Both the position numbers and the translations under genes were made by a program. Below are positions 1,110-26,702 of a stretch of 34,276 bases of DNA, piece after piece. This DNA comes from Angelakisella sp. GTDB lineage: Bacteria > Bacillota > Clostridia > Oscillospirales > Ruminococcaceae. The stretch spans positions 1 to 34,276 of the forward strand of contig JAAWEO010000003.1 in assembly GCA_022794295.1 (NCBI GenBank), written 5' to 3'. The notes below the pieces were generated by a model. It did no database searches and was not told the DNA's origin. It saw nothing but the letters and a program-made list of their open reading frames with translations. How positions within the stretch are numbered: position 1 is the first letter of the stretch; every line of letters starts with the position of its first letter.

Positions 1110-1664
1110 CTACAGCCCCTCCTCCTCTGTCGGGCGGCGGTACAAGGTGAGCAGGATCTTGCCGTAGCGGTAGCTTTTTTTCACCCGGAACTCCCCCACC
1201 TGCTCCGGAAGGGGCTCCTTTACCCGGGTCTCGCAGAGGATGGCCCCCCCGGGGCTCATCTTCCCCACCAAAAGGGGAAGGGCCTCCTGGACCAGGCCCT
1301 TGTCATAGGGGGGGTCCAAAAGGGCGATGTCGAAAACCTCGTTGGTGGAGCGCAGAAAGGCGGCAAAGTCCATGGCCGCCACCCGGGAGGCCTTGGCAAG
1401 GCCGGTGTGCTGGAGGTTCTGCCGGGTGATGTTCTGGGATTCCCGGGAGCTGTCCACAAAGACGCAGCCCCTGGCCCCCCGGCTGAGGGCCTCGATCCCC
1501 AGCTGCCCCGAACCGGCGAACAGGTCCAGGACATTGGCCCCCTCGATCTCGAACTGAAGGATGCTGAACATAGCCTCCTTCACCATGTCGGTGGTGGGCC
1601 GCACGTCCAGCCCCTCCAAAGCTGCCAGCTTCCGCCCCCTGGCGGTCCCGGTGATCACTCTCAA
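1110..1664 (-). CDS. rsmD: 16S rRNA (guanine-N2)-methyltransferase RsmD
   Basis: RsmD methylates G966 of 16S rRNA (E. coli numbering) during 30S assembly, using S-adenosylmethionine. The product is 184 residues. It opens LRVITGTARGRKL, has the family segment RPTTDMVKEAMFSIL, the SAM-binding motif DLFAGSGQLGIEALSRGA, and the catalytic DPPY in ALLDPPYDKG. I place the start at the TTG at 1662-1664, because GGAGG lies 8 bases upstream and family members begin at this 'MR(V/I)I(T/A)G' position. A TTG five codons further upstream overlaps the ribosome-binding site and is unlikely. A sigma-A promoter lies just upstream, overlapping the end of uvrC. Confidence 0.95.
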   Translation of the reverse strand: MRVITGTARGRKLAALEGLDVRPTTDMVKEAMFSILQFEIEGANVLDLFAGSGQLGIEALSRGARGCVFVDSSRESQNITRQNLQHTGLAKASRVAAMDFAAFLRSTNEVFDIALLDPPYDKGLVQEALPLLVGKMSPGGAILCETRVKEPLPEQVGEFRVKKSYRYGKILLTLYRRPTEEEGL

Positions 1665-1702
1665 ATTGTTTTCCTCCAAAAAATACGGTATCGTTACCCT
1701 TT

Positions 1703-1731
1703 ATTATTGATGATTTTCCCGTTTCTGTCAA
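1703..1731 (-). promoter_or_regulatory. Sigma-A promoter for rsmD, overlapping the uvrC stop codon
   Basis: On the minus strand, TTGACA (1726-1731) is followed after 17 bases by AATAAT (1703-1708), which is 6/6 and 5/6 to consensus. The -35 box covers the uvrC stop codon at 1728-1730. rsmD can therefore be transcribed independently even though uvrC lies directly upstream. Confidence 0.75.
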
Positions 1732-3638
1732 TCTTTTTCTTCCGGATTTCCAGAAATTTCCCCATCTGGGGCGGGGTCCTCTCCCCTCTCCTCCCCGTGG
1801 AGGGCCTCATAAAGCCTTCGGGCTGCGGGCAGGGTCATCCCCTTCACCTTTGCCAGCTCCTCCGGGGAGGCTGCGGCAATGGCCTTCCAGGTTTTAAAGT
1901 GGCGGTACAGGGCGGCGGCCCTGGTCTGGCCGATCCCCTCCACCTCCAGCAGGCGGGTGTTCACCGAGCCCTTCTGGTGGCTCTTTCTGGAAAACTCGAT
2001 GCTGTACCGGTGGACCTCGTCCTGGATACCGGTGACAAAGGCAAAGACCCCCCGGTTGGCGCTGATGGCGATCTCCCCGTTCTGGGAGGTGATGGCCCGG
2101 GTGCGGTGGCGGCTGTCCTTGACCATGCCGAACACCGGGATCTTCATCCCGCACCGTGCCAGGACCGCCTCCGCCACCGCCACATGGTTCGCCCCTCCGT
2201 CAATGAGCCACAGGTCAGGGAGGCGCTCAAAGCCATCGGGCTTCCCCTCTCCGGGGTTCTGCCGGTGCTCCAGGTAGTGGGCCATCCGCCGGGAGAGCAT
2301 CTGGTCCATGGCGGCGTAGTCGTCGGGCTGGGCCTGGTCCCGGATGGTAAAACGCTTGTAATTCTTCCGCAGGGGGCGGCCGTTTTCATAGACCACCATC
2401 CCCCCCACAATGGTCTGCCCGCCAAAGTTGGAAATATCATAGGCCTCGATGTAGGCCGGGGGCTTTTCCATCCCCAGCAGGAGGCCCAGCTCCCCCACCG
2501 CTGTCATCTCCCGGCCGGTGCGCCGGGTGCGGGTTGCCAGGGCCTGGGCGGCGTTGTTCTGGGCCATTTCGATCAGGCGCAGGGGCTGCCCCCGGGCGGG
2601 CACCGTAATGGTCAGCTTCTTCCCCCGGTCCTCGGTGATCAGCTGGGCCAGCAGCTCCTGGTCGGGGACGGGGCGGTCCAGAAACAGCTCCGAGGGGCCA
2701 TCCCGGCGGCCCATATAGTAGCTGAGGATAAACTCCCCCTGAACGTTCTCGATGCTTTCGAAGCAGTCAAAGGTGAAATCCAGCTTGTCCCGCAGGCGGC
2801 CCTCCCGAAAGACCAGCACCGAAAGATAGATGGTATCGGTCCCCTGGACCGCCGCCACCACATCCAGGCTTTTGTGGTTATAGGCCATCACCTTCTGCTG
2901 CTGGACGATGCGCTCCATGGCCCGGATGCGGTCCCGGTACCGGGCGGCCCGCTCGAAGTCCAGCTCCTCCGCCGCCTGCTCCATCTTTTTGGTGAGGGCC
3001 TCCACCGTCTGGCCGCCCCCTCCCTTAACAAAGGCCAGGGCCTCCTCAAAGACCTCGGCGTACTGCTCCGGGGTGATCTTCCCGGTACAGACCCCCATAC
3101 ACTGCTTGATATGGTAGCTGAGGCAGGGCCGGGCCTTACCGCAGTCCTCCGGGAACCGCCTGGTACAGGTGGGCAGAAGAAAGGCCTTGTTGGCCTCCTC
3201 CACCGTCTGCTTTACCACCATGGACGAGGTATAGGGTCCCAGGTAGGTGTAGTCCTTTTCCGTCTTTTGCATCTCGAAGGTGATACGGGGGTAGGCCCCC
3301 GGGGAGATGCCCACATAAAAATACCCCTTGGCGTCCTTCAAAAGGATATTATACTTTGGGGTGTGAAGCTTGATCAGGCTGGCCTCCAGCACCAGGGCCT
3401 CGAATTCGCTGTCGGTGACGATGTAGTCGAAATCCCGGACATTTTCCACCATACGGTAGACCTTGGCCTGGTGCCGGTCCACCGACCGGAAGTAGGAGGA
3501 CACCCGGTTTTTCAGGGACTTGGCCTTGCCGATATAAATAATCTGGCTCTTGGCGTCCTTCATAATATAGACCCCGGGCTCCTGGGGAAGGAGCTTCGTC
3601 CGCTGGTGGAGGGTCTCCACGATCTCCATATTCATCAT
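1728..3638 (-). CDS. uvrC: Excinuclease ABC subunit C (UvrC)
   Basis: UvrC makes both incisions in nucleotide excision repair after UvrAB has loaded on damaged DNA. The 636-residue product has the expected layout: an N-terminal GIY-YIG nuclease (EPGVYIMKDAKSQIIYIGKA, about residues 20-39), a UVR helix pair that binds UvrB (KKMEQAAEELDFERAARYRD, near residue 215), the RNase H-like C-terminal nuclease (AYDISNFGGQTIVGGMV), and helix-hairpin-helix motifs at the end (LEVEGIGQTRAAALYRHF and LAKVKGMTLPAARRLYEAL). The start at 3638 follows TAAGGAGG by 8 bases. The reading frame stays open 30 codons further upstream, but that extension contains the ribosome-binding site and is not family sequence. A second ATG at 3635 is possible. 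Confidence 0.97.
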   Translation of the reverse strand: MMNMEIVETLHQRTKLLPQEPGVYIMKDAKSQIIYIGKAKSLKNRVSSYFRSVDRHQAKVYRMVENVRDFDYIVTDSEFEALVLEASLIKLHTPKYNILLKDAKGYFYVGISPGAYPRITFEMQKTEKDYTYLGPYTSSMVVKQTVEEANKAFLLPTCTRRFPEDCGKARPCLSYHIKQCMGVCTGKITPEQYAEVFEEALAFVKGGGGQTVEALTKKMEQAAEELDFERAARYRDRIRAMERIVQQQKVMAYNHKSLDVVAAVQGTDTIYLSVLVFREGRLRDKLDFTFDCFESIENVQGEFILSYYMGRRDGPSELFLDRPVPDQELLAQLITEDRGKKLTITVPARGQPLRLIEMAQNNAAQALATRTRRTGREMTAVGELGLLLGMEKPPAYIEAYDISNFGGQTIVGGMVVYENGRPLRKNYKRFTIRDQAQPDDYAAMDQMLSRRMAHYLEHRQNPGEGKPDGFERLPDLWLIDGGANHVAVAEAVLARCGMKIPVFGMVKDSRHRTRAITSQNGEIAISANRGVFAFVTGIQDEVHRYSIEFSRKSHQKGSVNTRLLEVEGIGQTRAAALYRHFKTWKAIAAASPEELAKVKGMTLPAARRLYEALHGEERGEDPAPDGEISGNPEEKD

Positions 3639-3814
3639 CCGGGGTACCTCCTTATGGGACACAGAAAAGCCCGGAGCGCCTTCTCTGCGCTCCAGGCCCT
3701 TTTCTTTGACATTGGGCTCTGGTTTCATTATACCGGTTTTGGGTGCTTTTTACAAGACCCCTCTTTTTTTGGGGGGCTGTGCTTGGGGGCCGCCTGGGGG
3801 CGGCCTGTAGAGGG

Positions 3815-3849
3815 TCGAATGGACCGGCCTTATGGGCCGGTCCATTCGA
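3815..3849. repeat. Perfect 15-bp inverted repeat
   Basis: The arms TCGAATGGACCGGCC (3815-3829) and its exact complement (3835-3849) flank a 5-base loop. There is no T-run on either side, so this is not a typical intrinsic terminator. Confidence 0.8.
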
Positions 3850-3863
3850 GGGGGGGCGGTTGT

Positions 3864-3893
3864 TGCAAAACACCCCACTGGGGTGTATTTGCA
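3864..3893. repeat. Inverted repeat with one bulge
   Basis: TGCAAAACACCCC (3864-3876) pairs with GGGGTGTATTTGCA (3880-3893), leaving a single bulged base. It is the second in a row of hairpins in this gene-free stretch. Confidence 0.7.
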
Positions 3894-3922
3894 GGTTGGT
3901 TGGGTGCGGGGCGAGCAGGCTT

Positions 3923-3955
3923 CTCCTTTCTTTTTTTCTTTCAAAAAGAAAGGAG
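3923..3955. repeat. 13-bp A/T-rich inverted repeat
   Basis: CTCCTTTCTTTTT (3923-3935) is exactly complementary to AAAAAGAAAGGAG (3943-3955), with a 7-base loop. The arms hold anti-Shine-Dalgarno and Shine-Dalgarno-like sequence, but no ORF with family character follows. Confidence 0.75.
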
Positions 3956-4168
3956 CAAAGAAAAATGCGCCCTCCGGTAAGATGCGGGGGAATTTCGCCT
4001 GTTGCGACGGGCGACCAGGGCGCCGCCCTGGACCTGCCACCCTTTGAAAAGGGTGGACCTAAACTTTAGACCCTACGGGAGGTTGTGCGAGGCGAAAGGC
4101 GGTACCTGGAGTCTTGGGCTGACAGGAGTCACCTCCATCCAGCCTGTCAACGGTAGGGGAATCGTTTC

Positions 4169-8087: not shown

Positions 8088-8190
8088 CTGCTTCACTCTC
8101 CCTTCCCATCCGCTATTTTATATGCTGGAGTGGGCTCCATGGCAAGAAGGAGCCTGTAAAAATTTTGTGAATTTCTTTCACCGGGGACAG

Positions 8191-8222
8191 AAAAGCCCTC
8201 CGGAGGGAACCCCCTTCCGGAG
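8191..8222 (-). terminator. Probable intrinsic terminator after the split-barrel/TerD fusion gene
   Basis: On the minus strand CTCCGGAAGG and the facing CCCTCCGGAG form a stem (8199-8222), followed by GGCTTTTCTG. It lies about 15 bp past the stop at 8237 and would close the ltaE-mnmA-fusion operon. The T-run is short. Confidence 0.6.
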
Positions 8223-8236
8223 AGCAGGATGCAGCA

Positions 8237-9424
8237 TCATTCCAGCCACCGCTCCAGGCCAAAGACGGAGAACAGGGCGGTGGCCTGCCAGGCCTCCCAG
8301 GCCGCGTCACAGGGGGCGGTGAGGCGCCAGCCCCCGCCGGGAAGGCGGCGAAGCCTTGCGGCCAGGGCGCTTCCCTGCCCCTGCCAGGCTCCGGCCAGGG
8401 CGCCCCGGGCCAGGGGGGTCCCGGCTGCGTCCTCCACCGTCAGCTCCACGGCGGCCAGCTGCCCCAGGTGGTGGCCCCGGCTGTCCCCCTCGTACACCGA
8501 AAGGAGAAGGGCCACCTCCCCCCAGGGCTCCCCAAGGGCGGGCAGGTCCACCTGGCAGCGTTCCTCCCCCGGCCTCCCCAAGCGGTCGTCCCCCAGGTGG
8601 GTGACAGCGCCGCTCCGGTCGGTCTTCTGGTTGTAAAAGGCCAGGTCATACCGGCGCCGCAGCCTGCCCTCCCCGTCCAGGACCAGGGCAAGGACATCGC
8701 AGTCCAGCTCCGGCGGTCCCTGCCAGCGGAAGGTGAGGGTGAGCGGGGCATCGGGCAGAAGGACCTCCCCCAGGGGCTCCAACGGAGCCAGGGGGACGGG
8801 GGGCTCCCGGTTTCCCGGCCCTTCCCCGACCTTCCGGTTAAAAAACCAGCTGTAATCAAAGGGCCCCTGGGGGCCGGTCCTGATCTGCTCCGGGGTGGGA
8901 AAGGGGACCTGGGCGGCGTCTGTAAAGGGGATCTCCGCCTTGGCGGTGACCCGGTCCCAGGGGCACTCCACCAGGTACAGGTCCAGAAAGGCGTAGTGGG
9001 GGACGCTGAACTGGGTGGGCCTTCTGCCGTTGTGCCGCAGAATGGCCTGGATCCCCCTGCCGTGGCAGCTGTCCCGCCCCTGGCGGGAGACCCGGCGGAT
9101 GATGCCGTTTGCCATAACAGAGCGGTAGTCGTGGATCTCCCCCAGATAGGGGTCGTTGGGGCGGTTCTGGAAGGCGCTGAAGGTGAGGGACACCCAGGGC
9201 TCCCCCTGCCAGAGCTCCGCCTTGCGGCCCTCCCGGGCGCAGTGGAGAAAGACCCGGAGAGCGTCCTCTGTCACCTCGTAGCCATAGGAGAGGGGGACCA
9301 CATAGGGACACTCCCCGTCGTTGCAGCCCACGTGGACAATGGGGATCATATCCAGCATGGCGGCGATCAGGGCCCTGTCGTGGATCTGGTGCTCGAACTT
9401 GCGCATAGGGATGCTGCCGATCAT
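8237..9424 (-). CDS. Flavin split-barrel (NimA/PNPOx-like) domain fused to a TerD domain
   Basis: The 395-residue product joins two domains. Residues 1-165 resemble the pyridoxamine-phosphate-oxidase-like/NimA flavin-binding family: MRKFEHQIHDRALIAAMLD, then YVVPLSYGYE (41-50), FLHCAREGRK (59-68) and YRSVMANGIIRRV (100-112), where FMN would be held. Residues about 225-395 match TerD, the Ca2+-binding tellurite/stress protein: LDCDVLALVLDGEGRL, FYNQKTDRSGAVTHLGDD (263-280), QVDLPAL, LLLSVYEG and GGGWRL. The acidic residues of the Ca2+ site are mostly kept. A Pro-rich linker joins the halves. The start ATG overlaps the mnmA stop as ATGA, with GAGGAGG 7 bases upstream, so translation is coupled to mnmA. 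Reductase or sensor roles are conceivable; no function is proven. Confidence 0.88.
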   Translation of the reverse strand: MIGSIPMRKFEHQIHDRALIAAMLDMIPIVHVGCNDGECPYVVPLSYGYEVTEDALRVFLHCAREGRKAELWQGEPWVSLTFSAFQNRPNDPYLGEIHDYRSVMANGIIRRVSRQGRDSCHGRGIQAILRHNGRRPTQFSVPHYAFLDLYLVECPWDRVTAKAEIPFTDAAQVPFPTPEQIRTGPQGPFDYSWFFNRKVGEGPGNREPPVPLAPLEPLGEVLLPDAPLTLTFRWQGPPELDCDVLALVLDGEGRLRRRYDLAFYNQKTDRSGAVTHLGDDRLGRPGEERCQVDLPALGEPWGEVALLLSVYEGDSRGHHLGQLAAVELTVEDAAGTPLARGALAGAWQGQGSALAARLRRLPGGGWRLTAPCDAAWEAWQATALFSVFGLERWLE

Positions 9425-10512
9425 TCCGCTTCCTCCTCTGTTCCGGTGATGACGCCGCCGCAGGCCACCAGATCCCCAATGTACAGGACCAGGGTCTGGC
9501 CGGGGGTGACTGCCCGCTGGGGCTCCCGGAACCACAGGCGGAGCTTCCCGTCGGAGGTGAAAAGGGCCTCCCCGGGGGCCATGGCCTGGGAGTGGCGGAT
9601 CCGGGCCATGACCGGGGTGAGCTTCTCAAATTCCTCCTGGGGGAAGGAGACGAAGTTCACCGCCTCTGCAATGACCTTGCGGCTGTAAAGGCGGGATTCC
9701 CCGGCGGACAGGGTGACGGTGTTTTCCTTTGGGTCGATAGCCAGGACGAACATGGGCCGGCCCAGGGCGATGCCCAGGCCCTTCCGCTGGCCGATGGTGT
9801 AGCAACCGATGCCCCGGTGCTCCCCCAGGGGGTTCCCCGCCTCGTCCACAAACTGCCCCCGGGGCTGGGGGCAGCCGGTATGGCGCTCCAGAAAGGCGGT
9901 GTAGTCCCCGTCGGGGATAAAGCAGACATCCTGACTGTCCTTCTTTTTCGCCACCGGCAGGCCGCTTTGGGCGGCGAAGGCCCGGATCTCCTCCTTGGTG
10001 TAGTCCCCGCAGGGGAGAAGCAGGCGGGAGAGCTGGTCCCGGGTCACCGAGCTGAGAAAATAGCTCTGGTCCTTTTTGGGGTCCTTCCCCTGGGCCAGGA
10101 GGTGCCGCCCTGTTTTCAGCTCCCGGAGGGCCCGGGCGTAGTGGCCGGTGGCGATGTACTCCGCCCCCAGCTCCTCCGCGGCCCGGCAGAGGGCGGCGAA
10201 CTTCATCCGGCGGTTGCAGAGGATGCAGGGGTTTGGGGTGCGCCCCCGGAGGTATTCCGCCGCAAAGGGCTCCACTACCTCCCGGGCAAACCTCTCCCGG
10301 CAGTCGAGCACGTAGTGGGGGATGCCCAGAACACGGCAGACCTCCCGGGCGTCTTGGATGCCATCGGGGCCGCAGGACCGGGGGACGCTTTCTGCTTCCT
10401 CCCACAGCCGCAGGGTGACACCCACTGCCTCGTACCCCTCCCGCTGGAGGAGCCAGGCGGCAGCGGAGCTGTCCACCCCGCCGCTCATTCCTACCAGGAC
10501 CTTTTTCTTCAT
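9421..10512 (-). CDS. mnmA: tRNA 2-thiouridylase MnmA
   Basis: MnmA adenylates and thiolates U34 of the tRNAs for Lys, Glu and Gln, taking sulfur from a persulfide relay. The 363-residue product has the PP-loop ATP site SGGVDSS (residues 10-16), the first catalytic cysteine in NPCILCNRRMKF (Cys99) and the persulfide cysteine in SQDVCFIP (Cys197), close to Cys102 and Cys199 of E. coli MnmA. The C-terminal beta-barrel is complete. The ATG at 10512 follows GAAGGA by 9 bases; a start 6 codons further upstream would overlap the small membrane-protein gene. It lies 5 bp after that gene and overlaps the following fusion gene by 4 bp, placing it mid-operon. Confidence 0.96.
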   Translation of the reverse strand: MKKKVLVGMSGGVDSSAAAWLLQREGYEAVGVTLRLWEEAESVPRSCGPDGIQDAREVCRVLGIPHYVLDCRERFAREVVEPFAAEYLRGRTPNPCILCNRRMKFAALCRAAEELGAEYIATGHYARALRELKTGRHLLAQGKDPKKDQSYFLSSVTRDQLSRLLLPCGDYTKEEIRAFAAQSGLPVAKKKDSQDVCFIPDGDYTAFLERHTGCPQPRGQFVDEAGNPLGEHRGIGCYTIGQRKGLGIALGRPMFVLAIDPKENTVTLSAGESRLYSRKVIAEAVNFVSFPQEEFEKLTPVMARIRHSQAMAPGEALFTSDGKLRLWFREPQRAVTPGQTLVLYIGDLVACGGVITGTEEEAE

Positions 10513-10517
10513 GACTT

Positions 10518-10658
10518 TTATTCCTTCCATAGAAGGCCGGCGGCGGCAAGGCAGAGCCCTGCCCCGCCGCCGATCCAGCCAAAAAAGCTGCTGCTGCCGG
10601 CGGCGATCCCTGCCAGGATCACCGCCATGCCAAAGAGCTCCAGACGGATCCCCTTCAC
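10518..10658 (-). CDS. 46-residue membrane peptide between ltaE and mnmA
   Basis: A GTG start at 10656-10658 overlaps the ltaE stop (GTGA) and has GGAGG 10 bases upstream inside ltaE. The product begins (M)[20 protein letters not shown] and continues [20 protein letters not shown] before ending LLWKE. It is one long or two short hydrophobic helices with glycine-rich turns, a plausible inner-membrane hairpin. It fills the gap to mnmA almost exactly (5 bp left), and both junctions look translationally coupled, which supports a real gene. The family is not recognised and the function unknown. Confidence 0.7.
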
Positions 10659-12403: not shown

Positions 12404-13039
12404 TCATCCGGCGCCAGCTTCATTAAAGGATGATATTTTTTCTTGCAGCAGCTCCGCAAACCTTCCCACATGGTACCCATCGCAAACCGCGTGGTGCACC
12501 TGGATCGCAAGGGGCAGCGTCCTTACGCCGCCGGTATCGGAGAACCTTCCCATGGTAAATATGGGGAGAAGATAGTTCCCCTGGCTGGCGATATTGATAT
12601 CAAAGGCGGTGAAAGAGAGCCATGGCACCATTGAAACATCGAAGCTATTGGGGGGCCTATTGGGCTTCGGCGCGAATTTCAGGGAGGAAGAATATTCCGC
12701 GGCATCCGCTTCGTAGGCCCTCCGGAATTCACCGTAATCGGAACCGGCCTCTGTCCATATCCCGGAAAAGGTCTTGCTCTCCCGGTTGAAAACGGTGTAG
12801 GCCGGGTGCATCCGGTCATAAATGCCAAGGCCCTCCGCCGTGAGAGCGGTGCGGAACTCCGGCATCTGATTGACGGTCCGGGTCAGCAGCCAAAGCATTG
12901 CGGGATAGAGCCGCTCCCCCTTCAGCCTTGTGATATCCAGGGAAACGGTGGCCGAGTAGGTGCACCGGACCTCGTTGATAAAGTGCAGGTAAAGCTCCTT
13001 GCGTTCCCAGGTCTCCAGATCGATCCGGGTAAATGTCAT
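12404..13039 (-). CDS. cat: Type A chloramphenicol O-acetyltransferase-like protein
   Basis: Enzymes of this family move acetyl from acetyl-CoA to the 3-hydroxyl of chloramphenicol. The 211-residue product matches CAT throughout: CTYSATVSLDIT (26-37), LYPAMLW, PEFRTALTAEGLGIYD (60-75), the serine region FDVSMVPWLSFTAFDIN (133-149), YLLPIFTMGRF, and the catalytic block QVHHAVCDGYHVGRF (180-194) with His183 and Asp187. From memory it looks closest to the CatP/CatQ group of clostridia. All active-site residues appear intact, so activity is plausible, but resistance is not shown. The ATG overlaps the stop of a 10-codon leader ORF, and AAAGGAG lies 10 bases upstream. No transposon genes flank it, though part of a MITE-like repeat lies about 70 bp upstream. 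Confidence 0.92.
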   Translation of the reverse strand: MTFTRIDLETWERKELYLHFINEVRCTYSATVSLDITRLKGERLYPAMLWLLTRTVNQMPEFRTALTAEGLGIYDRMHPAYTVFNRESKTFSGIWTEAGSDYGEFRRAYEADAAEYSSSLKFAPKPNRPPNSFDVSMVPWLSFTAFDINIASQGNYLLPIFTMGRFSDTGGVRTLPLAIQVHHAVCDGYHVGRFAELLQEKISSFNEAGAG

Positions 13040-19568: not shown

Positions 19569-20681
19569 ATGAAGAAAAAGTATCTTTCTATCCTTCTCGC
19601 CGCCCTGATGGTCCTTACCCTGATGGCGGGCTGCGGCGGCGGCAATGGCGCCAACAGTGGCAGCAATGGCGGCGAAGGCGGCCCCCTGAAGGTCGCCAAC
19701 ATCGTCAACGGCAACCTGGGGGACAAGTCCTTCTTCGATTCCTGCGAGGCCGGCCTGAAGAAGCTCCAGGACGAAGGTCTTATCACCTACAAAACCTTTG
19801 AGCTGGGGGCCACCGACGCCGACCAGCCCAAGTGGGTCTCCACCCTGGACGAGCTTTCCGCCGACGGCGAGTATGACCTCATCGTCTGCGGCACCTACCA
19901 GATGGACGCCTACCTGAACGATTGCGCCGCAAAATACCCCGATCAGAAGTATTTCATCTACGACGCCGAGGTGGCCCAGCCCAACGTAGCCAGCATCACC
20001 TTTAAGCAGAACGACCTGGGCTACCTGGTGGGCACCGCCGCCGCTCTCATGACCTCCTCCGATATGGAGAAGATCAACCCCGAGAAGGTCATCGGCTTTG
20101 TGGGCGGCGAGGACGGTCCCGTTATCAACGACTTCCTGGTCGGCTTCATCCAGGGTGCCCAGGCGGCCGACCCCGAGGTAAAGATCGACAGCCAGTACGT
20201 GGGTAACTTCTACGACACCGGCAGGGGCAAGGAGATCGCCAATGTTATGGTGAATAACAAGTGTGATGTGATCTGGGGCGTTGCCGGCGGCGCCGGCAAC
20301 GGGGCGGCTGAAGCCGCCGCCGAGCACGGCATTTGGTTCATCGGCGTCGACTCCGACCAGGAGGCCACCTTCTCCGCTTCCCAGCCCCAGATGGCCGCTG
20401 CCACCATCTTCTCCGGCCTGAAGAACTGCGGCGACGGCATCATCTACATGGTGGACCAGCTTAACGCCGGTACCATCCAGTGGGGCAAGACCACCCAGCT
20501 GGGTATTGCCGAGGGCGGCGTTGGCCTGACCAGCGGCGGCAACTTCCAGAAGCTCCCCGACAACATCAAAAAGGCCCTGGACGAGGTCGCCCCCAAGGTC
20601 ACCTCCGGCGAGATCAAGGTGGACACCGCCTTTGACGAGTCCTTTGACGTTAAGGGTCTGCGCGATTCCGTCCGTCCCTGA
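19569..20681 (+). CDS. BMP-family nucleoside-binding lipoprotein of an ABC importer
   Basis: This is the extracytoplasmic substrate-binding part of a nucleoside importer (BmpA/PnrA type; B. subtilis NupN is the equivalent). The 370-residue product has a lipoprotein signal peptide ending LTLMAGC (Cys22), a Gly/Asn/Ser tether, then the BMP fold: GNLGDKSFFDSCEAGLKKL, YDLIVCGTYQMDAYLNDCAA, KNDLGYLVG-type stretch FKQNDLGYLVGTAAALM, and IGFVGGEDGPVINDFLVGF. The later VIWGVAGGAGNGAAEAAAEH and FIGVDSDQEATF are the ligand-contact segments of the family. AAAGGGAG stands 6-7 bases before the ATG. The three membrane and ATPase genes follow. A terminator-like hairpin after the gene should raise its level over theirs. 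Confidence 0.95.
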   Translation: MKKKYLSILLAALMVLTLMAGCGGGNGANSGSNGGEGGPLKVANIVNGNLGDKSFFDSCEAGLKKLQDEGLITYKTFELGATDADQPKWVSTLDELSADGEYDLIVCGTYQMDAYLNDCAAKYPDQKYFIYDAEVAQPNVASITFKQNDLGYLVGTAAALMTSSDMEKINPEKVIGFVGGEDGPVINDFLVGFIQGAQAADPEVKIDSQYVGNFYDTGRGKEIANVMVNNKCDVIWGVAGGAGNGAAEAAAEHGIWFIGVDSDQEATFSASQPQMAAATIFSGLKNCGDGIIYMVDQLNAGTIQWGKTTQLGIAEGGVGLTSGGNFQKLPDNIKKALDEVAPKVTSGEIKVDTAFDESFDVKGLRDSVRP

Positions 20682-20717
20682 CCGTCCAGCAGGCACTGAC
20701 ACAGGCTGAAAAAACGC

Positions 20718-20752
20718 GGGGGGAGCCGTCGCTGTGCGGCTCTCCCCTTTTT
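20718..20752 (+). terminator. Partial terminator between binding protein and ATPase genes
   Basis: GGGGGGAGCCG and CGGCTCTCCCC form a stem with one G-T pair and an 8-base loop, followed by TTTTT. It sits 36 bp after the binding-protein stop and before the ATPase gene, which has no obvious promoter of its own. Read-through would give more binding protein than membrane components. Confidence 0.75.
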
Positions 20753-20808
20753 CAAAAACCCCCGCCTGCGGGCGGGCAAAACCGGGTTTGAGAGGAGGAA
20801 GCGATTCT

Positions 20809-22368
20809 ATGGAGGATACCATCCTTGCCGTTCAGATGAAGGGGATCACCAAGGTCTACCCCAACGGCATCGCGGCAAACCAAGGCGTCGACTTCAACGT
20901 TCGCAGGGGCGAGATCCACGCCCTGATGGGGGAAAACGGCGCGGGCAAATCCACACTGATGAAAATGCTGTTCGGGCTGGAGCAGCCCACCGAGGGGGAG
21001 ATCGTCATCAACGGGGAGACGGTGAGCCTCACCTCCCCCACCGTGGCCATCTCCAAGGGGATCGGGATGGTCCACCAGCACTTTATGCTGGTGCCCTCCC
21101 TGACGGTGGCGGAAAACATCGTCCTGGGCATGGAGCCCACCAGGGGGATGTTCATCGACTACGCCGAGGCGGTGCGCATCACCGAGGAATTTTCCCAGCG
21201 GTACAACCTCCATGTGGAGCCCCACGCCAAGGTGATGGATATCCCCGTGGGGATGAAGCAGAAGGTGGAGATCCTCAAGGCCCTGGTCCGGGGGGCCAAG
21301 ATCCTGATCCTGGACGAGCCCACCGCCGTGCTCACCAGCCAGGAGACCGCCGAGCTCTTTAAGGAGCTGATCCACTTTAAGGAGCAGGGGCACACTATTA
21401 TCTTCATCTCCCACAAGCTAAAGGAGATCAAGCAGATCACCGACCGCATGACCATTATGCGGGGCGGCAAATCCATGGGGGTTTTTAACACCGCCGATGT
21501 TTCGGAGCAGGATATCTCCCGCCTGATGGTGGGCCGTGACGTGGTGCTGAAGGTGGAAAAGGAAAAGGCCCAGCCCACGGACACCGTCCTGCGGGTGGAG
21601 GACATCCACTACGAAAACGAGTACGGCAAGAAGATGCTCAACGGGGTCTCCTTCACCGTCCGCCGTGGGGAGATCCTGGGCATTGCCGGGGTGGAGGGCA
21701 ACGGCCAGCGGGAGCTGGTGAGCATGCTCTTTGACATGGTCCCCCCGGACGCCGGGACCATCACTGTGGAGGGCCAGACCGTCACCGGGGCGGGCCAGCG
21801 GAGGATCCGGGACATGGGGGTCTCCCACATCCCCGAGGACCGGATGACCTACGGCGCGGCGGGCACCGCCTCCATTGAGGAGAACCTGATCTCTGACCGG
21901 TTTGAAAAGCCCGCCTTCCACAAGGGGGTCCTCTTTGACATGGAGGCCATCCACCGGGAGAGCGACCAGCTGATCCGGGACTACCTGATCCTTTGCCGCA
22001 GCGGCAAGCAGCAGGTGAAGATGCTCTCCGGCGGCAACATCCAGAAGGTGGTGGTGGCCCGGGAGTTCTCCTGCGGGCCCAAGCTGATCATCGCTGACCA
22101 GCCCACCCGGGGCATCGACGTGGGCGCCACCGAGTTCATCCGCCGGAAGCTGGTGGAGCTGAGCCGGGAGGGGGCCGCCGTGCTGCTGGTCTCCGCCGAC
22201 CTGAACGAGGTAATGGAGCTTTCCGACAGCCTGATGGTGTTCTGCGGCGGCGAGATCGCGGCCTACTTTGAAGACACCTCTGCCCTGACTGACGAGGAGA
22301 TGGGCGAGTATATGCTCGGCCTGAAGCGCCAGTCCCCGGAGGAGATAAGGAGGGCTTTCCATGAATAA
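20809..22368 (+). CDS. Nucleoside ABC importer, double ATPase subunit (NupO/RbsA type)
   Basis: The 519-residue cytoplasmic protein has two ATP-binding domains. The first has Walker A GENGAGKST (41-49), Walker B ILILDEPTAVLT and a degenerate signature (PVGMKQKVEILKAL). The second has a degenerate Walker A (GVEGNGQREL), a good signature LSGGNIQKVVVARE and Walker B LIIADQPTRGID. This asymmetry is normal for sugar and nucleoside importers of the RbsA/MglA/NupO group. The ATG at 20809 has GAGGAGG 9-10 bases upstream; 25 upstream codons in frame span the ribosome-binding site and are excluded. It overlaps the next gene by 8 bp. Confidence 0.96.
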   Translation: MEDTILAVQMKGITKVYPNGIAANQGVDFNVRRGEIHALMGENGAGKSTLMKMLFGLEQPTEGEIVINGETVSLTSPTVAISKGIGMVHQHFMLVPSLTVAENIVLGMEPTRGMFIDYAEAVRITEEFSQRYNLHVEPHAKVMDIPVGMKQKVEILKALVRGAKILILDEPTAVLTSQETAELFKELIHFKEQGHTIIFISHKLKEIKQITDRMTIMRGGKSMGVFNTADVSEQDISRLMVGRDVVLKVEKEKAQPTDTVLRVEDIHYENEYGKKMLNGVSFTVRRGEILGIAGVEGNGQRELVSMLFDMVPPDAGTITVEGQTVTGAGQRRIRDMGVSHIPEDRMTYGAAGTASIEENLISDRFEKPAFHKGVLFDMEAIHRESDQLIRDYLILCRSGKQQVKMLSGGNIQKVVVAREFSCGPKLIIADQPTRGIDVGATEFIRRKLVELSREGAAVLLVSADLNEVMELSDSLMVFCGGEIAAYFEDTSALTDEEMGEYMLGLKRQSPEEIRRAFHE

Positions 22369-23452
22369 AAACATGAAGTTCGAGATCGTCCGGGGGGCAG
22401 CCTCTGTTCTGCTGGCCCTGGCGGTGGCAATGATCTTTATCTTCATCATCAGCGACACCCCCTTCGAGGCCCTGTATTACCTGATCATCGGGCCCTTTAC
22501 CAAGGTCCGGTACCTGTGGCTGATCCTGGAGCGGATGATCCCCATTATCTTCACCGGCCTGGGGGTCTGCGTCATGTTCCAGGCCAACCAGTTCAACCTG
22601 GCGGGAGAGGGCACCCTTTTCTTCGGCGGTCTGGTGGCGGCGGCCGTTGCCATCTACCTCCCCATGCCCCCGGTGCTGCACATCATTGCCGCCATTGTCA
22701 TCGCCTCGGTGGTGGCGGCGGCGGCCATGCTGATCCCGGCCCTGCTGAAAACCAGGCTGGGGGCCAGCGAAATGGTCTCCTCCCTGATGCTCAACTACAT
22801 CCTGCTGCAGCTGGGGGTCTACATCCTGAACTGGCACATGGCGGACCGCACCCAGGGCGCCACCATGTCCCACCAGTTCCTGGACACCGCCCGCATCCCC
22901 GCCCTGGTCCAGCGGACCAACCTCAGCTGGGGCATTGTCGTCGCCCTGGTGATGACGGTGCTGGTCTACCTGTTTATGTACCGCACCAAGTGGGGCTACG
23001 CCATCCGCATGGTGGGCCAGAACCAGAGCTTCGCCAAGTACTCCGGCATCAAGGTGGCCGCCACTGTCGTTCTCTGCCAGGTGATCGGCGGGCTGCTCTC
23101 CGGCATGGGGGGCGCCGTGGAGATCCTGGGGTACTTTGACCGCTTTAAGTGGCGGCAGCTGCCCGGGTATGGCTGGGACGGTGTCACCATTGCCATCCTT
23201 GCCAAAAACAACCCCCTCTTTATCCCCCTGGCAGCCTTCTTCATGTCCTACCTGAAGCAGGGCTGCAACCTGATGCAGCTGAACACCGACGTCCCCGCCG
23301 AGATGCTCAGCATTATCCAGGCGGTGATCTTCCTGTTCTTTGCCGCCGAGCAGTTCCTGAGCAAGTACCGCCAGAGGCTGGTGGTCAAGGGCGCCAAGGA
23401 GGAGCTGGCGGAGCAGAAAGCCGCCGGTGCGCAGAAAGGAGCTGAGGCGTAA
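22361..23452 (+). CDS. Nucleoside ABC importer permease 1 (NupP type)
   Basis: The 363-residue product is an integral membrane protein of the BPD_transp_2 family (as RbsC, NupP). It begins MNKNMKFEIVRGAASVLLAL and has eight to ten hydrophobic helices, with family segments FTGLGVCVMFQANQFNLAGE (about 62-81) and GYAIRMVGQNQSFAKYSGIK, the cytoplasmic coupling loop that contacts the ATPase. The last 25 residues are a charged tail. It overlaps the ATPase gene by 8 bp and the next permease by one base, so the three are translationally coupled. Confidence 0.95.
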   Translation: MNKNMKFEIVRGAASVLLALAVAMIFIFIISDTPFEALYYLIIGPFTKVRYLWLILERMIPIIFTGLGVCVMFQANQFNLAGEGTLFFGGLVAAAVAIYLPMPPVLHIIAAIVIASVVAAAAMLIPALLKTRLGASEMVSSLMLNYILLQLGVYILNWHMADRTQGATMSHQFLDTARIPALVQRTNLSWGIVVALVMTVLVYLFMYRTKWGYAIRMVGQNQSFAKYSGIKVAATVVLCQVIGGLLSGMGGAVEILGYFDRFKWRQLPGYGWDGVTIAILAKNNPLFIPLAAFFMSYLKQGCNLMQLNTDVPAEMLSIIQAVIFLFFAAEQFLSKYRQRLVVKGAKEELAEQKAAGAQKGAEA

Positions 23453-24384
23453 TGAAAATGCTGACCGATATTTTTGGCATTATTTTTACCGAAGCCTTTG
23501 CCTTTTCCATCTTCCGCATCACCACCCCCATCCTCTTTGCCGCCCTGGCGGCGGTGGTGGCCGACCGGGCCGGTGTCACCAACATCGGTCTGGAGGGAAT
23601 CATGATGATCTCCGCCCTGACAGGGGTCATCTTCTCCGCCTGGACCCAAAGCGCCTGGATCGGCCTTTTGTGCGCCATCCTCCTTGGAATGGCTACCGCC
23701 CTGATGATCGGCTTCTTTGCCCTGAAGCTTAAGACCGACATCATCCTGGCCGGTATCGCGGTGAACATGCTGGGCAGCGGCGGCACGGTGTTCTTTATGT
23801 ACCTGGCCTCCGGCGACCGGGGATATTCCGCCAACCTGGCCAGCAAGGTGATGCCCACCGTCAACATCCCCGGCCTGCAAAGCATCCCCGTGCTGGGGGG
23901 AATCCTCTCCGGCCACAACATCCTCACCTACCTGGCCTTTGCCGCGGTGCTGCTGGTGTGGGTGCTGCTGTACAAGACCCCCATGGGCCTCCAGATCCGG
24001 GCGGTGGGCGAAAGCCCCAACGCCGCCGACTCTGTGGGCGTCAGCGTCAACCGCATCAAGTACATCGCCCTGGGCATCTCCGGTGCTCTGGCGGGTCTGG
24101 GCGGCGCCTTTATGTCCATGGGCTACATGTCCAGCTTTAACACCGGCATGACCGCCGGACGGGGCTTTATCGCCCTGGCTGCCGAGGCCATGGGCCGCGG
24201 GGAGCCCATCGGGACCATGCTCACCTCCCTGCTCTTTGGCTTTGCCGATGCCCTGGCAAACAACATGCAGAGCCTGGGCCTGCCCCAGGAGCTGGTGGCA
24301 ATGACCCCCTATGTCTTTACCATTGTGGGCCTGGCTGCCTACGCCGCCAGCACCCTGAAGAAGAACCGGAAGAAGCTGGAGTGA
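23452..24384 (+). CDS. Nucleoside ABC importer permease 2 (NupQ type)
   Basis: The 310-residue membrane protein is the second channel half of the importer. It has the family segments ADRAGVTNIGLEGIMMISAL (about 40-59), TDIILAGIAVNMLGSGGTVF, the coupling loop GLQIRAVGESPNAADSVGVS and GRGFIALAAEAMGRGEPIGT near the C-terminus. The ATG shares its first base with the end of the stop codon of permease 1. It is followed by an 84-bp spacer holding a GGGCCCG/CGGGCCC hairpin (24416-24445) with only a weak T-run, so the genes downstream are probably still read at a reduced level. Confidence 0.95.
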   Translation: MKMLTDIFGIIFTEAFAFSIFRITTPILFAALAAVVADRAGVTNIGLEGIMMISALTGVIFSAWTQSAWIGLLCAILLGMATALMIGFFALKLKTDIILAGIAVNMLGSGGTVFFMYLASGDRGYSANLASKVMPTVNIPGLQSIPVLGGILSGHNILTYLAFAAVLLVWVLLYKTPMGLQIRAVGESPNAADSVGVSVNRIKYIALGISGALAGLGGAFMSMGYMSSFNTGMTAGRGFIALAAEAMGRGEPIGTMLTSLLFGFADALANNMQSLGLPQELVAMTPYVFTIVGLAAYAASTLKKNRKKLE

Positions 24385-24468
24385 TCCCTCTCCCCTGCCC
24401 TTCCCCTGCAATTCCGGGCCCGTCCTCCCTGTGCTGGGCGGGCCCTTGCCTTTGAAAGGAGAACCCCC

Positions 24469-24810
24469 ATGGACTTTGAAAAGAAGATCGCCCCCTTTTT
24501 CTGGGTGGAGCATGACTCCAGCGTCTCGGTCTGCCTCACAGTGGGAGAATACCTCCAGGAGGTATTTGACACCCGGGCCGGGGAGGGCTTTGAGGGCAGC
24601 GGCTACGACTGGGAAAGTCTGGCCCGGGTCTTTCTTGCCCAACAGTGTCCCCATCTGGAGTCGGAGATCGGCTTTGACCCGGAAGGAAGTATGTTCTGCG
24701 CCTACTCCAAAAACCGGGAGGCCCTGAAGGAGTTCATCCTCCTTTTTAAGGCCGCCTGCGAGGACCGGGCGCTGATCCTGGACCTGTTCCGGCAGGCCGA
24801 GCTGGACTGA
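24469..24810 (+). CDS. Imm51-like immunity protein (orphan)
   Basis: The 113-residue soluble protein starts MDFEKKIAPFFWVEHDSSVS; GAAAGGAG lies about 8 bases before the ATG. The stretch EGFEGSGYDWESLARVFL (about 39-56), then FDPEGSMFCAYSKNREALKE (66-85) and the C-terminal CEDRALILDLFRQAELD resemble what I recall of the Imm51 family (PF15595) of polymorphic-toxin immunity proteins. No toxin with a polymorphic-toxin architecture is next to it. It sits between the importer and the nucleoside hydrolases, with a 22-bp gap to the next gene. It could be a stand-alone immunity gene against toxins of neighbours, or a domesticated protein. The family call needs a profile search. Confidence 0.65.
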   Translation: MDFEKKIAPFFWVEHDSSVSVCLTVGEYLQEVFDTRAGEGFEGSGYDWESLARVFLAQQCPHLESEIGFDPEGSMFCAYSKNREALKEFILLFKAACEDRALILDLFRQAELD

Positions 24811-24832
24811 CCGAAAGAAAGGAAGTGCCCCT

Positions 24833-25774
24833 ATGACAAAGCCCATTCCCGTCATCCTGGACGGCGACCCCGGCCACGATGACGCCATCGCCTGGGTGCT
24901 GGCTAAGGCGAGCCCCTGCCTGGATATCCGGGCGGTGACCTCGGTGTGCGGCAACCAGACCATCGAAAAGACCACCTACAACGCCCGGCGGATCATGGCC
25001 CTGATCGGGCTGGATGTGCCGGTAGCTAAGGGGGACCCCCGTCCCCTTCTGGCCGAGCCCATTATCGCCCCGGTGGTCCACGGCCAGTCCGGCCTGGACG
25101 GTCCTCCCCTGCCGGAGCCTGCCGGGGAGCTGAGCCCCCTTTCCGCCGTGGAGCTGATGGCCCAGATCATCGCTGACAGCGAGGAGCCTGTGACCATTGT
25201 CCCCACCGGTCCCCTGACCAACGTGGCAAAGCTGCTGCTGGCCCACCCGGACCTGAAGCCCAAGATCGCCCATATCTCCCTGATGGGGGGCGGCGTTAAA
25301 ATGGGCAACTGGACCCCTGCCGCCGAATTCAACATACTGGTGGACCCCCACGCCGCCCGGCTGGTGTTCCGCTCCGGCATCCCCATTACCATGGCGGGGC
25401 TGGATGTCACCGAAAAGGCGCTGGTCTGCCCCGATGACTTCCGGCGTATCCGGGAGGTGGGCAACCCGGTGGCGGTGACGGTGGCAGACTGGCTGGAGTT
25501 CTTCTACCAGTTCCACAAGACCATGGATTACCCCGGCGCCCCCATCCACGATGCGGTGGCGGTGGCAGCCCTGGTGAAGCCGGAGATCCTCACCAAGCGG
25601 GAGATGTACGTGGACGTGGAGACCGGCGGCGACTACTGCGCAGGCTGCACCGTGGGGGACTGGTACGGCACCGGCGGCCACAAGCCCAACGCCACCGTCC
25701 TTTTGGACATTGACCGGGAGGCCTTTGTGGACCTTTTGGTGGAGGCGGTAAAGACCTATGGGGAGGTACGATAA
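24833..25774 (+). CDS. Inosine/uridine-preferring nucleoside hydrolase 1
   Basis: The enzyme splits ribonucleosides into base and ribose. The 313-residue product has the Ca2+-binding DGDPGHDDA (10-18), the family segments SVCGNQTIEKTTYNARRIM, IVPTGPLTNVAKLLLAHPDL and SLMGGGVKMGNWTPAAEFNI, then VDPHAARLVF and the catalytic histidine context APIHDAVAVAAL. All metal and catalytic positions look intact. AAAGGAAG precedes the ATG. It is one of two tandem paralogues downstream of the nucleoside importer, which strongly suggests that imported nucleosides are cleaved at once. Base preference cannot be told from sequence alone. Confidence 0.95.
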   Translation: MTKPIPVILDGDPGHDDAIAWVLAKASPCLDIRAVTSVCGNQTIEKTTYNARRIMALIGLDVPVAKGDPRPLLAEPIIAPVVHGQSGLDGPPLPEPAGELSPLSAVELMAQIIADSEEPVTIVPTGPLTNVAKLLLAHPDLKPKIAHISLMGGGVKMGNWTPAAEFNILVDPHAARLVFRSGIPITMAGLDVTEKALVCPDDFRRIREVGNPVAVTVADWLEFFYQFHKTMDYPGAPIHDAVAVAALVKPEILTKREMYVDVETGGDYCAGCTVGDWYGTGGHKPNATVLLDIDREAFVDLLVEAVKTYGEVR

Positions 25775-25775
25775 C

Positions 25776-26702
25776 ATGAGCGAAAAAAGGATCCCGGTGA
25801 TCATCGACTGTGACCCTGGCTGCGACGACACCGCCGCCCTGCTGCTGGCCTTCCGGTGCCCGGAGCTGGACGTCCGGGGGATCACCACCGTATCCGGCAA
25901 TGTGCCCCTGGATAAGACCACCTACAATGCCCTGCGGGTGGCGGAGGCCATTGGCACCGATGTCCGTGTCTGCCCCGGGGCGGACCGTCCCATGTTCCGG
26001 GAGGCGGTCTACGCCCCCCATGTCCACGGGGAGGACGGACTGCTGGGCATCCCCCTCCCTGCCCCCAAAAGGAAGGCCTCCTTCTACAAGGCCTGGGACT
26101 TTATCTACGAGGAAGCGGCGGCCCAGGAGGGAGAGCTGGAGATCATCGCCGTGGGGCCCCTGACCAACCTGGCCATCGCCCTGGCGGCCCACAACGACCT
26201 GGCGGGGATGATCAAGCGCATTGTCATCATGGGGGGCGCCGCCCAGGGGGGAAACGTCACCCCCTGCGCCGAGTTTAACATCTATGTGGACCCGGAGGCC
26301 GCCGGCATGGTGATGAAGTCGGGCATCCCCCTTTGCGTCTGCGGTCTGGATGTGACATTAAAGGCCTATTTGACAGCGGCGGAGATCGGGGAGATCAAGG
26401 CCCTGGGCACCCCCCAGGCGGAGCTCTTTGCGGCGGTGACCGAGCAGAACTGCGAAAAGGTCTTTTGTCCCCAGGGCGCTCCCCTTCACGACCCGGCGGC
26501 GGTGCTTTTTGCCGCGGACAGCAGCTATTTCACCGTTCAGCGGTGCTGGATGGGGGTGGAGACCACCGGCACCATCACCCGGGGAAAGACGGTGACCGAC
26601 TGCTGGTCCGACGCCCAGAAGGACCCCAATGTGGAGCTGGTGCTGGATGTGGACCGGGAACGGTTTGCCAAGACGGTGAAGCGGCTCATGGAACGGTACT
26701 GA
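25776..26702 (+). CDS. Inosine/uridine-preferring nucleoside hydrolase 2
   Basis: A second nucleoside hydrolase of 308 residues. It has DCDPGCDDT (10-18) in place of the DGDPGHDDA of its neighbour, TVSGNVPLDKTTYNALRVAE, AVGPLTNLAIALAAHNDLAG, IVIMGGAAQGGNVTPCAEFN and APLHDPAAVLF with the catalytic histidine. The two proteins are clearly homologous but far from identical, so this is an old duplication or separate acquisition and probably a split of substrate range. The ATG at 25776 follows GGGGAGG by 9 bases and starts one base after the stop of the first hydrolase, so they are coupled. Six in-frame codons upstream are excluded. Confidence 0.95.
   Translation: MSEKRIPVIIDCDPGCDDTAALLLAFRCPELDVRGITTVSGNVPLDKTTYNALRVAEAIGTDVRVCPGADRPMFREAVYAPHVHGEDGLLGIPLPAPKRKASFYKAWDFIYEEAAAQEGELEIIAVGPLTNLAIALAAHNDLAGMIKRIVIMGGAAQGGNVTPCAEFNIYVDPEAAGMVMKSGIPLCVCGLDVTLKAYLTAAEIGEIKALGTPQAELFAAVTEQNCEKVFCPQGAPLHDPAAVLFAADSSYFTVQRCWMGVETTGTITRGKTVTDCWSDAQKDPNVELVLDVDRERFAKTVKRLMERY

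Follow-up and report, generated by a model that had tools for sequence, protein, structure and literature searches.

A rare protein joining a Nim/Anf3-like split barrel to a divergent TerD-like domain in Angelakisella

What might a protein do that carries a split barrel of the NimA/PNPOx kind and a TerD domain in a single reading frame, and does its place directly behind the tRNA thiolation gene mnmA tell us anything about its role? The questions are raised by a gene on contig JAAWEO010000003.1 of Angelakisella sp., within a stretch of 34,276 nucleotides that was analysed as a whole (henceforth the window). An original prediction, made from the letters of this DNA, had proposed such a fusion, had supposed it to be undescribed and had tentatively tied it to tRNA thiolation or sulfur chemistry. 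Both kinds of domain are familiar by themselves. No account of them joined turned up in the literature searched, coverage of which is partial (subscription papers, including the NMR work on calcium binding by TerD, lie mostly outside it), and to that extent the fusion does appear undescribed, although it may already sit in protein databases under generic names.

The gene and its two domains

The features of the locus are as follows.

8237..9424, minus strand: coding sequence of the fusion protein (395 aa and stop), with a homologous ORF in nine other genomes
8915..9424, minus strand: N-terminal split-barrel domain (PF12900, Nim/Anf3-like), residues 1–170, from Pfam, fold and alignment to relatives of known structure
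8759..8914, minus strand: variable linker, residues 171–222, 29–48% identical across Angelakisella, dN/dS 0.45–0.95
8240..8758, minus strand: C-terminal TerD-like domain (PF02342), residues 223–395, from Pfam, fold and residue comparison
9421..10530, minus strand: mnmA (tRNA 2-thiouridine synthase), upstream of the fusion gene; NF001138, 410 bits against a cut-off of 284
9432..9437, minus strand: Shine-Dalgarno sequence AGGAGG of the fusion gene, within the 3' end of mnmA
8185..8225, minus strand: probable intrinsic terminator 3' of the fusion gene, hairpin CTCTCCGGAAGGGGGTTCCCTCCGGAGGG followed by CTTTTCT

Reading of the window's ORFs puts the fusion at 8240–9424 on the minus strand, with its ATG at 9424 and its stop codon at 8237–8239. 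The overlap with mnmA that had been taken for translational coupling is real, the stop of mnmA and the start of the fusion gene sharing an ATGA at 9421–9424, and the fusion gene has a Shine-Dalgarno sequence of its own besides. Because a terminator-like hairpin lies directly behind it (GC-rich, with a folding energy of -31 kcal/mol for a 90-base stretch, and absent from the list of a simple consensus terminator scan), the operon that includes mnmA probably ends with the fusion gene. Elsewhere in the window, the ORF at 1407–3980 and other long plus-strand ORFs run antisense, at up to 857 aa, opposite real genes, among them a uvrC-like gene (1728–3728); these are apparently a product of high third-position GC and not genes.

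A Pfam search placed Pyridox_ox_2 (PF12900) at residues 17–118 (38.8 bits, cut-off 27) and TerD (PF02342) at residues 233–370 (64.8 bits, cut-off 25.3). We aligned 11 full-length fusion proteins from 10 genomes, several of them incomplete bins, and all 11 matched both families. An AlphaFold2 model built from six sequences is of moderate confidence (mean pLDDT 71.9, pTM 0.53) and its domain interface is unreliable; in fold comparison its N-half matched split barrels (2fg9, Z 12.6; 2hti, Z 12.4) and its C-half TerD structures (3ibz, Z 15.3; 2kxt, Z 12.8). By a score above cut-off and a split-barrel fold at Z 12–13 the N-half belongs to the Pyridox_ox_2 superfamily, and by a score above cut-off and the TerD beta-sandwich fold the C-half belongs to the TerD superfamily. 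Profile searches and structure prediction, both proposed with the original prediction, thus uphold its central claim, and the coordinates it gave for the gene are exact. An assembly frameshift artificially joining two genes, the hazard it had named, is rejected, as the identical single-ORF layout recurs in nine other genomes that were assembled independently.

A putative heme/flavin site in the N-terminal half

The best relatives of the N-half with solved structures are BtNimB (2fg9, E 9e-21), BH0577, a flavin-nucleotide-binding protein (2hti, 2.5e-15), and Anf3 (6rk0, 2.7e-7). One residue stands out in the alignment with them.

9242..9244, minus strand: codon of His61, which lines up with the histidine that ligates heme in Anf3 (His70) and in BtNimB (His50)

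H61 is invariant across the 11 fusions and 33 stand-alone relatives; its partners in the alignments, by chain numbering, are His69 in 2fg9 and His72 in 6rk0. The former we take to be His50 of BtNimB, going by the paper's numbering and assuming the usual kind of tag, here of 19 residues. For 6rk0 the offset of 2 was checked on Tyr103-Asn104-Phe105-Asn106 (PMC6579470), which fall at chain positions 105–108. According to a study of C. difficile NimB, the histidines of Anf3 and BtNimB are homologous heme-ligand positions, and the corresponding His55Ala mutant of CdNimB lost heme-dependent resistance and had lowered nitroreductase activity (PMC10338468). In Anf3, Arg21 and Lys170 hold the heme propionates (PMC6579470). 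Their counterparts by register, R8 and K162, are both invariant in the fusions and are probable propionate ligands, on an alignment that is weak or extrapolated at these points (the segment joining K162 to Lys170 is low-scoring). Among the residues universal in the stand-alone relatives, P44, G48, H61, G66 and G107 are kept in 11/11 fusions and K68 in 10/11. The proximal heme histidine typical of Anf3/NimB-type proteins is present as the invariant H61, and the NimA/PNPOx-like label can be narrowed: the N-half is predicted to be of the Nim-Anf3 heme/flavin type and to bind both heme and flavin.

What such a site would act upon is a separate matter. Just past the heme-water loop, H98, D99 and R101 are invariant in the fusions, the residues of Anf3 at these places being Cys, Asn and Arg; since the loop around the axial water of Anf3 is replaced, the substrate of the fusion may differ from that of Anf3. 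Nor can reduction of nitroimidazoles be assumed, given that the N-half scores far below the NimABCDEF equivalog cut-offs (15.3 bits against 260 for NF000261, 13.3 bits against 270 for NF000262).

The best reading of the protein, to which we give an even chance, is that of a reductase that uses heme and flavin to act on small electrophiles and carries a TerD-like domain as an accessory. The Nim/Anf3-type split barrel would bind flavin and heme, with H61 as the predicted proximal ligand and R8 and K162 at the propionates, and electrons would pass from reduced nicotinamide or another donor to the flavin, on to the heme and finally to a small electrophile, which might be O2 or a xenobiotic of the nitroaromatic or a similar kind. 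Most likely the TerD-like beta-sandwich would not be a second enzyme and would instead tune or place the reductase through binding of a metal ion or a partner. The data show the architecture, its single origin, the conservation of residues at the cofactor site and that these genomes yielded no other TerD; the binding of heme and flavin, the reductase activity, the class of substrate and the part played by the TerD-like domain are what we infer here. A role in xenobiotic or redox stress would fit with the TetR regulator found beside some copies of the gene (see below) and with the rise in TerD synthesis that metronidazole causes in C. difficile (PMC6262375).

We consider it unlikely, if credible, that the protein is instead a non-enzymatic redox or heme sensor, its split barrel binding flavin or heme and its TerD-like domain signalling to a protein or membrane. 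HutZ, PaiB and others among the fold matches are PNPOx-like split barrels known as heme or flavin binders but not clearly as reductases, TerD proteins are associated with stress and catalysis is not known for them, and the conserved WxE tail at the C-terminus of the TerD half could serve docking. However, the structures nearest to the N-half are BtNimB, the flavin-nucleotide-binding protein and Anf3, of which the NimB-type proteins and Anf3 are enzymes, and in the loci compared no conserved signalling partner is encoded near the fusion gene.

A divergent TerD-like domain

Returning to the reductase reading, its accessory half was set against 53 stand-alone TerDs taken from the fetched loci. 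Of the TerD residues, the fusions retain D241 and D243 (the DxD motif), F263, D279, E288 and W366. The Asn following FYN has become Gln (266), the acidic loop is shorter (N to D at 280, D to G at 286, the next Asp variable) and the QxFG...N motif is lost, while RRY (257–259), W379 and W393-x-E395 are invariant residues of the fusions' own. The full acidic loop GDN...GxGDDE, found in 51–53 of the 53 stand-alone TerDs, is missing from the fusion, and by these residues its C-half is a TerD-superfamily domain of a divergent subtype, not a canonical TerD. With most of the canonical acidic loop gone, metal binding by this half is uncertain.

The fusion is the sole TerD detected in nine of the ten genomes, and in the tenth both TerDs are fusions. 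The other TerD paralogues that go with a ter (tellurite resistance) operon were therefore not found in these genomes and, by eye, TerC, TerB, TelA and other ter genes were not recognised within the window either. (Also by eye, a plus-strand run at 19569–26702 of the window, with a BMP-type lipoprotein, an ABC ATPase and a pair each of permeases and nucleoside-hydrolase-like genes, resembles an operon for nucleoside uptake and cleavage.) Some 26 of 297 genomes of the family have a TerD match of any kind, counted among the matches listed. Every TerD detected in the fusion-bearing genomes is a fusion, yet TerD is altogether absent from most of the related genomes, which argues for independence from ter paralogues and only weakly suggests that the fusion replaced stand-alone TerDs.

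These data also bear on the idea that the protein serves Ca2+-dependent stress defence led by its TerD half, as in resistance to tellurite or oxidants, with reducing power provided by the split barrel. The acidic-motif residues D241/D243, D279 and E288 are invariant, and induction of TerD by metronidazole in C. difficile (PMC6262375) brings TerD and Nim-type chemistry together in one stress. Against it, evolution is faster in the TerD half than in the N-half, the loop is shortened with the substitutions at 286, the following Asp and 266 just described, and a canonical TerD was not found in any genome with the fusion; all told, we think this rather improbable.

For the reductase with an accessory TerD-like domain, a further proposal is that this domain acts as a regulator, gated by a metal or a partner and built directly onto the enzyme, which we put forward tentatively and with low expectation. 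If true, it would be the first TerD-type domain covalently attached to an enzyme with predictable chemistry, and the stand-alone TerDs of stress operons would by implication work in trans, on redox enzymes or next to them. Stress and tellurite clusters widely contain TerD proteins, and their mechanism of detoxification is not known (PMC6262375); a fusion of single origin offers directly testable partner chemistry, and may give a handle on the function of TerD-type domains. It may also add a type of reductase to gut anaerobes, with a bearing on drug inactivation there. Its interest would be higher if the TerD part controls the enzyme.

Distribution, surroundings and relation to known systems

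Full-length fusions are present in 3 of 10 genomes of the genus; the other two proteins are 71% and 59% identical to that of the window, and both of their genomes carry the name Angelakisella in public records. A scan of 84,980 species genomes, queried with two N-terminal peptides only and hence a lower bound on the spread, brought further full-length copies at 43–49% identity in Candidatus Lachnoclostridium avicola, Candidatus Copromonas faecavium and a Bacillota bin from roe deer, in whose family 5 of 148 sampled genomes have the fusion, one of them twice. Apart from the window's own copy, none was found in the samples of its family (297 genomes), order (394), class (391) and phylum (338), nor, apart from that bin's own, in 397 genomes from the family of the Copromonas bin; the fusion is therefore rare and patchily distributed. 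Plasmids and phages gave partial TerD or Nim-like matches, none over more than 80% of the query, PADLOC gave no match to the protein, and the fetched loci (mostly about 1.5 kb on each side) held no split pair of a stand-alone N-half beside a stand-alone TerD.

In maximum-likelihood trees the fusions are monophyletic for both halves (bootstrap 73 for the N-half and 95 for the C-half), which fits a single old fusion event as the source of all copies. Their sister in the N-half tree is a stand-alone protein (L004), joined at bootstrap 96, and in the C-half tree they sit on a long stem. Pairwise dN/dS within Angelakisella is 0.23–0.37 for the N-half, 0.41–0.60 for the TerD half and 0.45–0.95 for the linker, and judged by these ratios both halves are under purifying selection. 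In Candidatus Lachnoclostridium stercorigallinarum (L043:2996-3154) an in-frame internal deletion has left about 50 residues of the gene, the first ~25 codons fused to the last ~29, at a site syntenic with the intact gene of L. avicola (L040). This remnant, together with high omega for the linker and moderate values for the TerD half, could speak for a relic on its way out, in which two domains came together by chance and do nothing jointly. That is very unlikely, however, as eleven intact copies span several families, both domains have omega below 1, and each half has invariant residues specific to the fusions.

The survey invited by the original prediction bore out the recurrence of the fusion and confined its mnmA linkage to the three Angelakisella species; in the seven other genomes the neighbours are unrelated. 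The gene lies 3' of an M18-type aminopeptidase gene in L071 and L072, between permease and HAD hydrolase genes in L040, and behind the gene of a membrane-MsrA protein in the roe-deer gut bin (L041). In L073 and L074, two species, a TetR regulator precedes it by about 11 nt in the same direction, an order that resembles a common arrangement of detoxification genes. In a congener without the fusion (G029, its mnmA sharing 68% identity with the window's, against 63% for the fusion carrier G298), a DUF3788 gene fills the slot behind mnmA (L082:2709-3119). From these varied surroundings and the L043 deletion, the fusion gene is dispensable and untied to MnmA, and we read its position behind mnmA as a local operon insertion rather than a functional tie. 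A partner factor for MnmA in tRNA thiolation or sulfur chemistry, for which the ATGA overlap in three Angelakisella species speaks, is accordingly rejected as extremely improbable on the seven genomes with other neighbours (M18 aminopeptidase, TetR, msrA, HAD or others), the DUF3788 gene in the slot, and the rarity of the fusion, whereas MnmA is nearly universal among bacteria.

Two neighbouring genes deserve mention in their own right. The MsrA (methionine sulfoxide reductase) directly upstream of the fusion at L041:3702-4922 has an N-terminal multi-helix, membrane-like segment. Near mnmA, the Angelakisella chromosome encodes a type A chloramphenicol acetyltransferase-like (CatA-like) protein (window 12404–13039, minus strand; PF00302, 239.5 bits; NF000491, 260.3 bits, slightly under the cut-off of 270).

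Among known systems, the Nim reductases (BtNimB 2fg9, C. difficile NimB, D. radiodurans NimA) share with the fusion the split-barrel fold, a PF12900-type domain, the proximal heme His (H61) and a GxK motif, and BtNimB is the closest solved sequence to its N-half. Unlike them, the fusion lies far under the equivalog cut-offs, has HDYR, VPHY and R134 of its own, and bears the extra TerD-like domain. Anf3 of Azotobacter (6rk0) and MSMEG_4975 (4ybn) are heme/FAD split barrels whose fold the N-half matches, and the Anf3 set of Arg21, His70 and Lys170 is apparently kept as R8, H61 and K162, in part by weak alignment; in contrast, identity over the structural alignment is about 18%, the Tyr-Asn-Phe-Asn loop of Anf3 at the heme water is not retained, and these proteins are without a TerD domain. 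With the TerDs of ter operons (2kxt of K. pneumoniae, for which Ca2+ binding is known from the PDB title, and 3ibz of S. coelicolor) and with chain 9a6r_B (SCP2), the fusion has in common PF02342, the beta-sandwich, the DxD, FYN and GD motifs and W366. It differs from them in the Gln after FYN, the shorter acidic loop, the lack of QxFG...N and of TerD paralogues, its RRY and W379/W393xE395 signature, and in being always attached to a split barrel.
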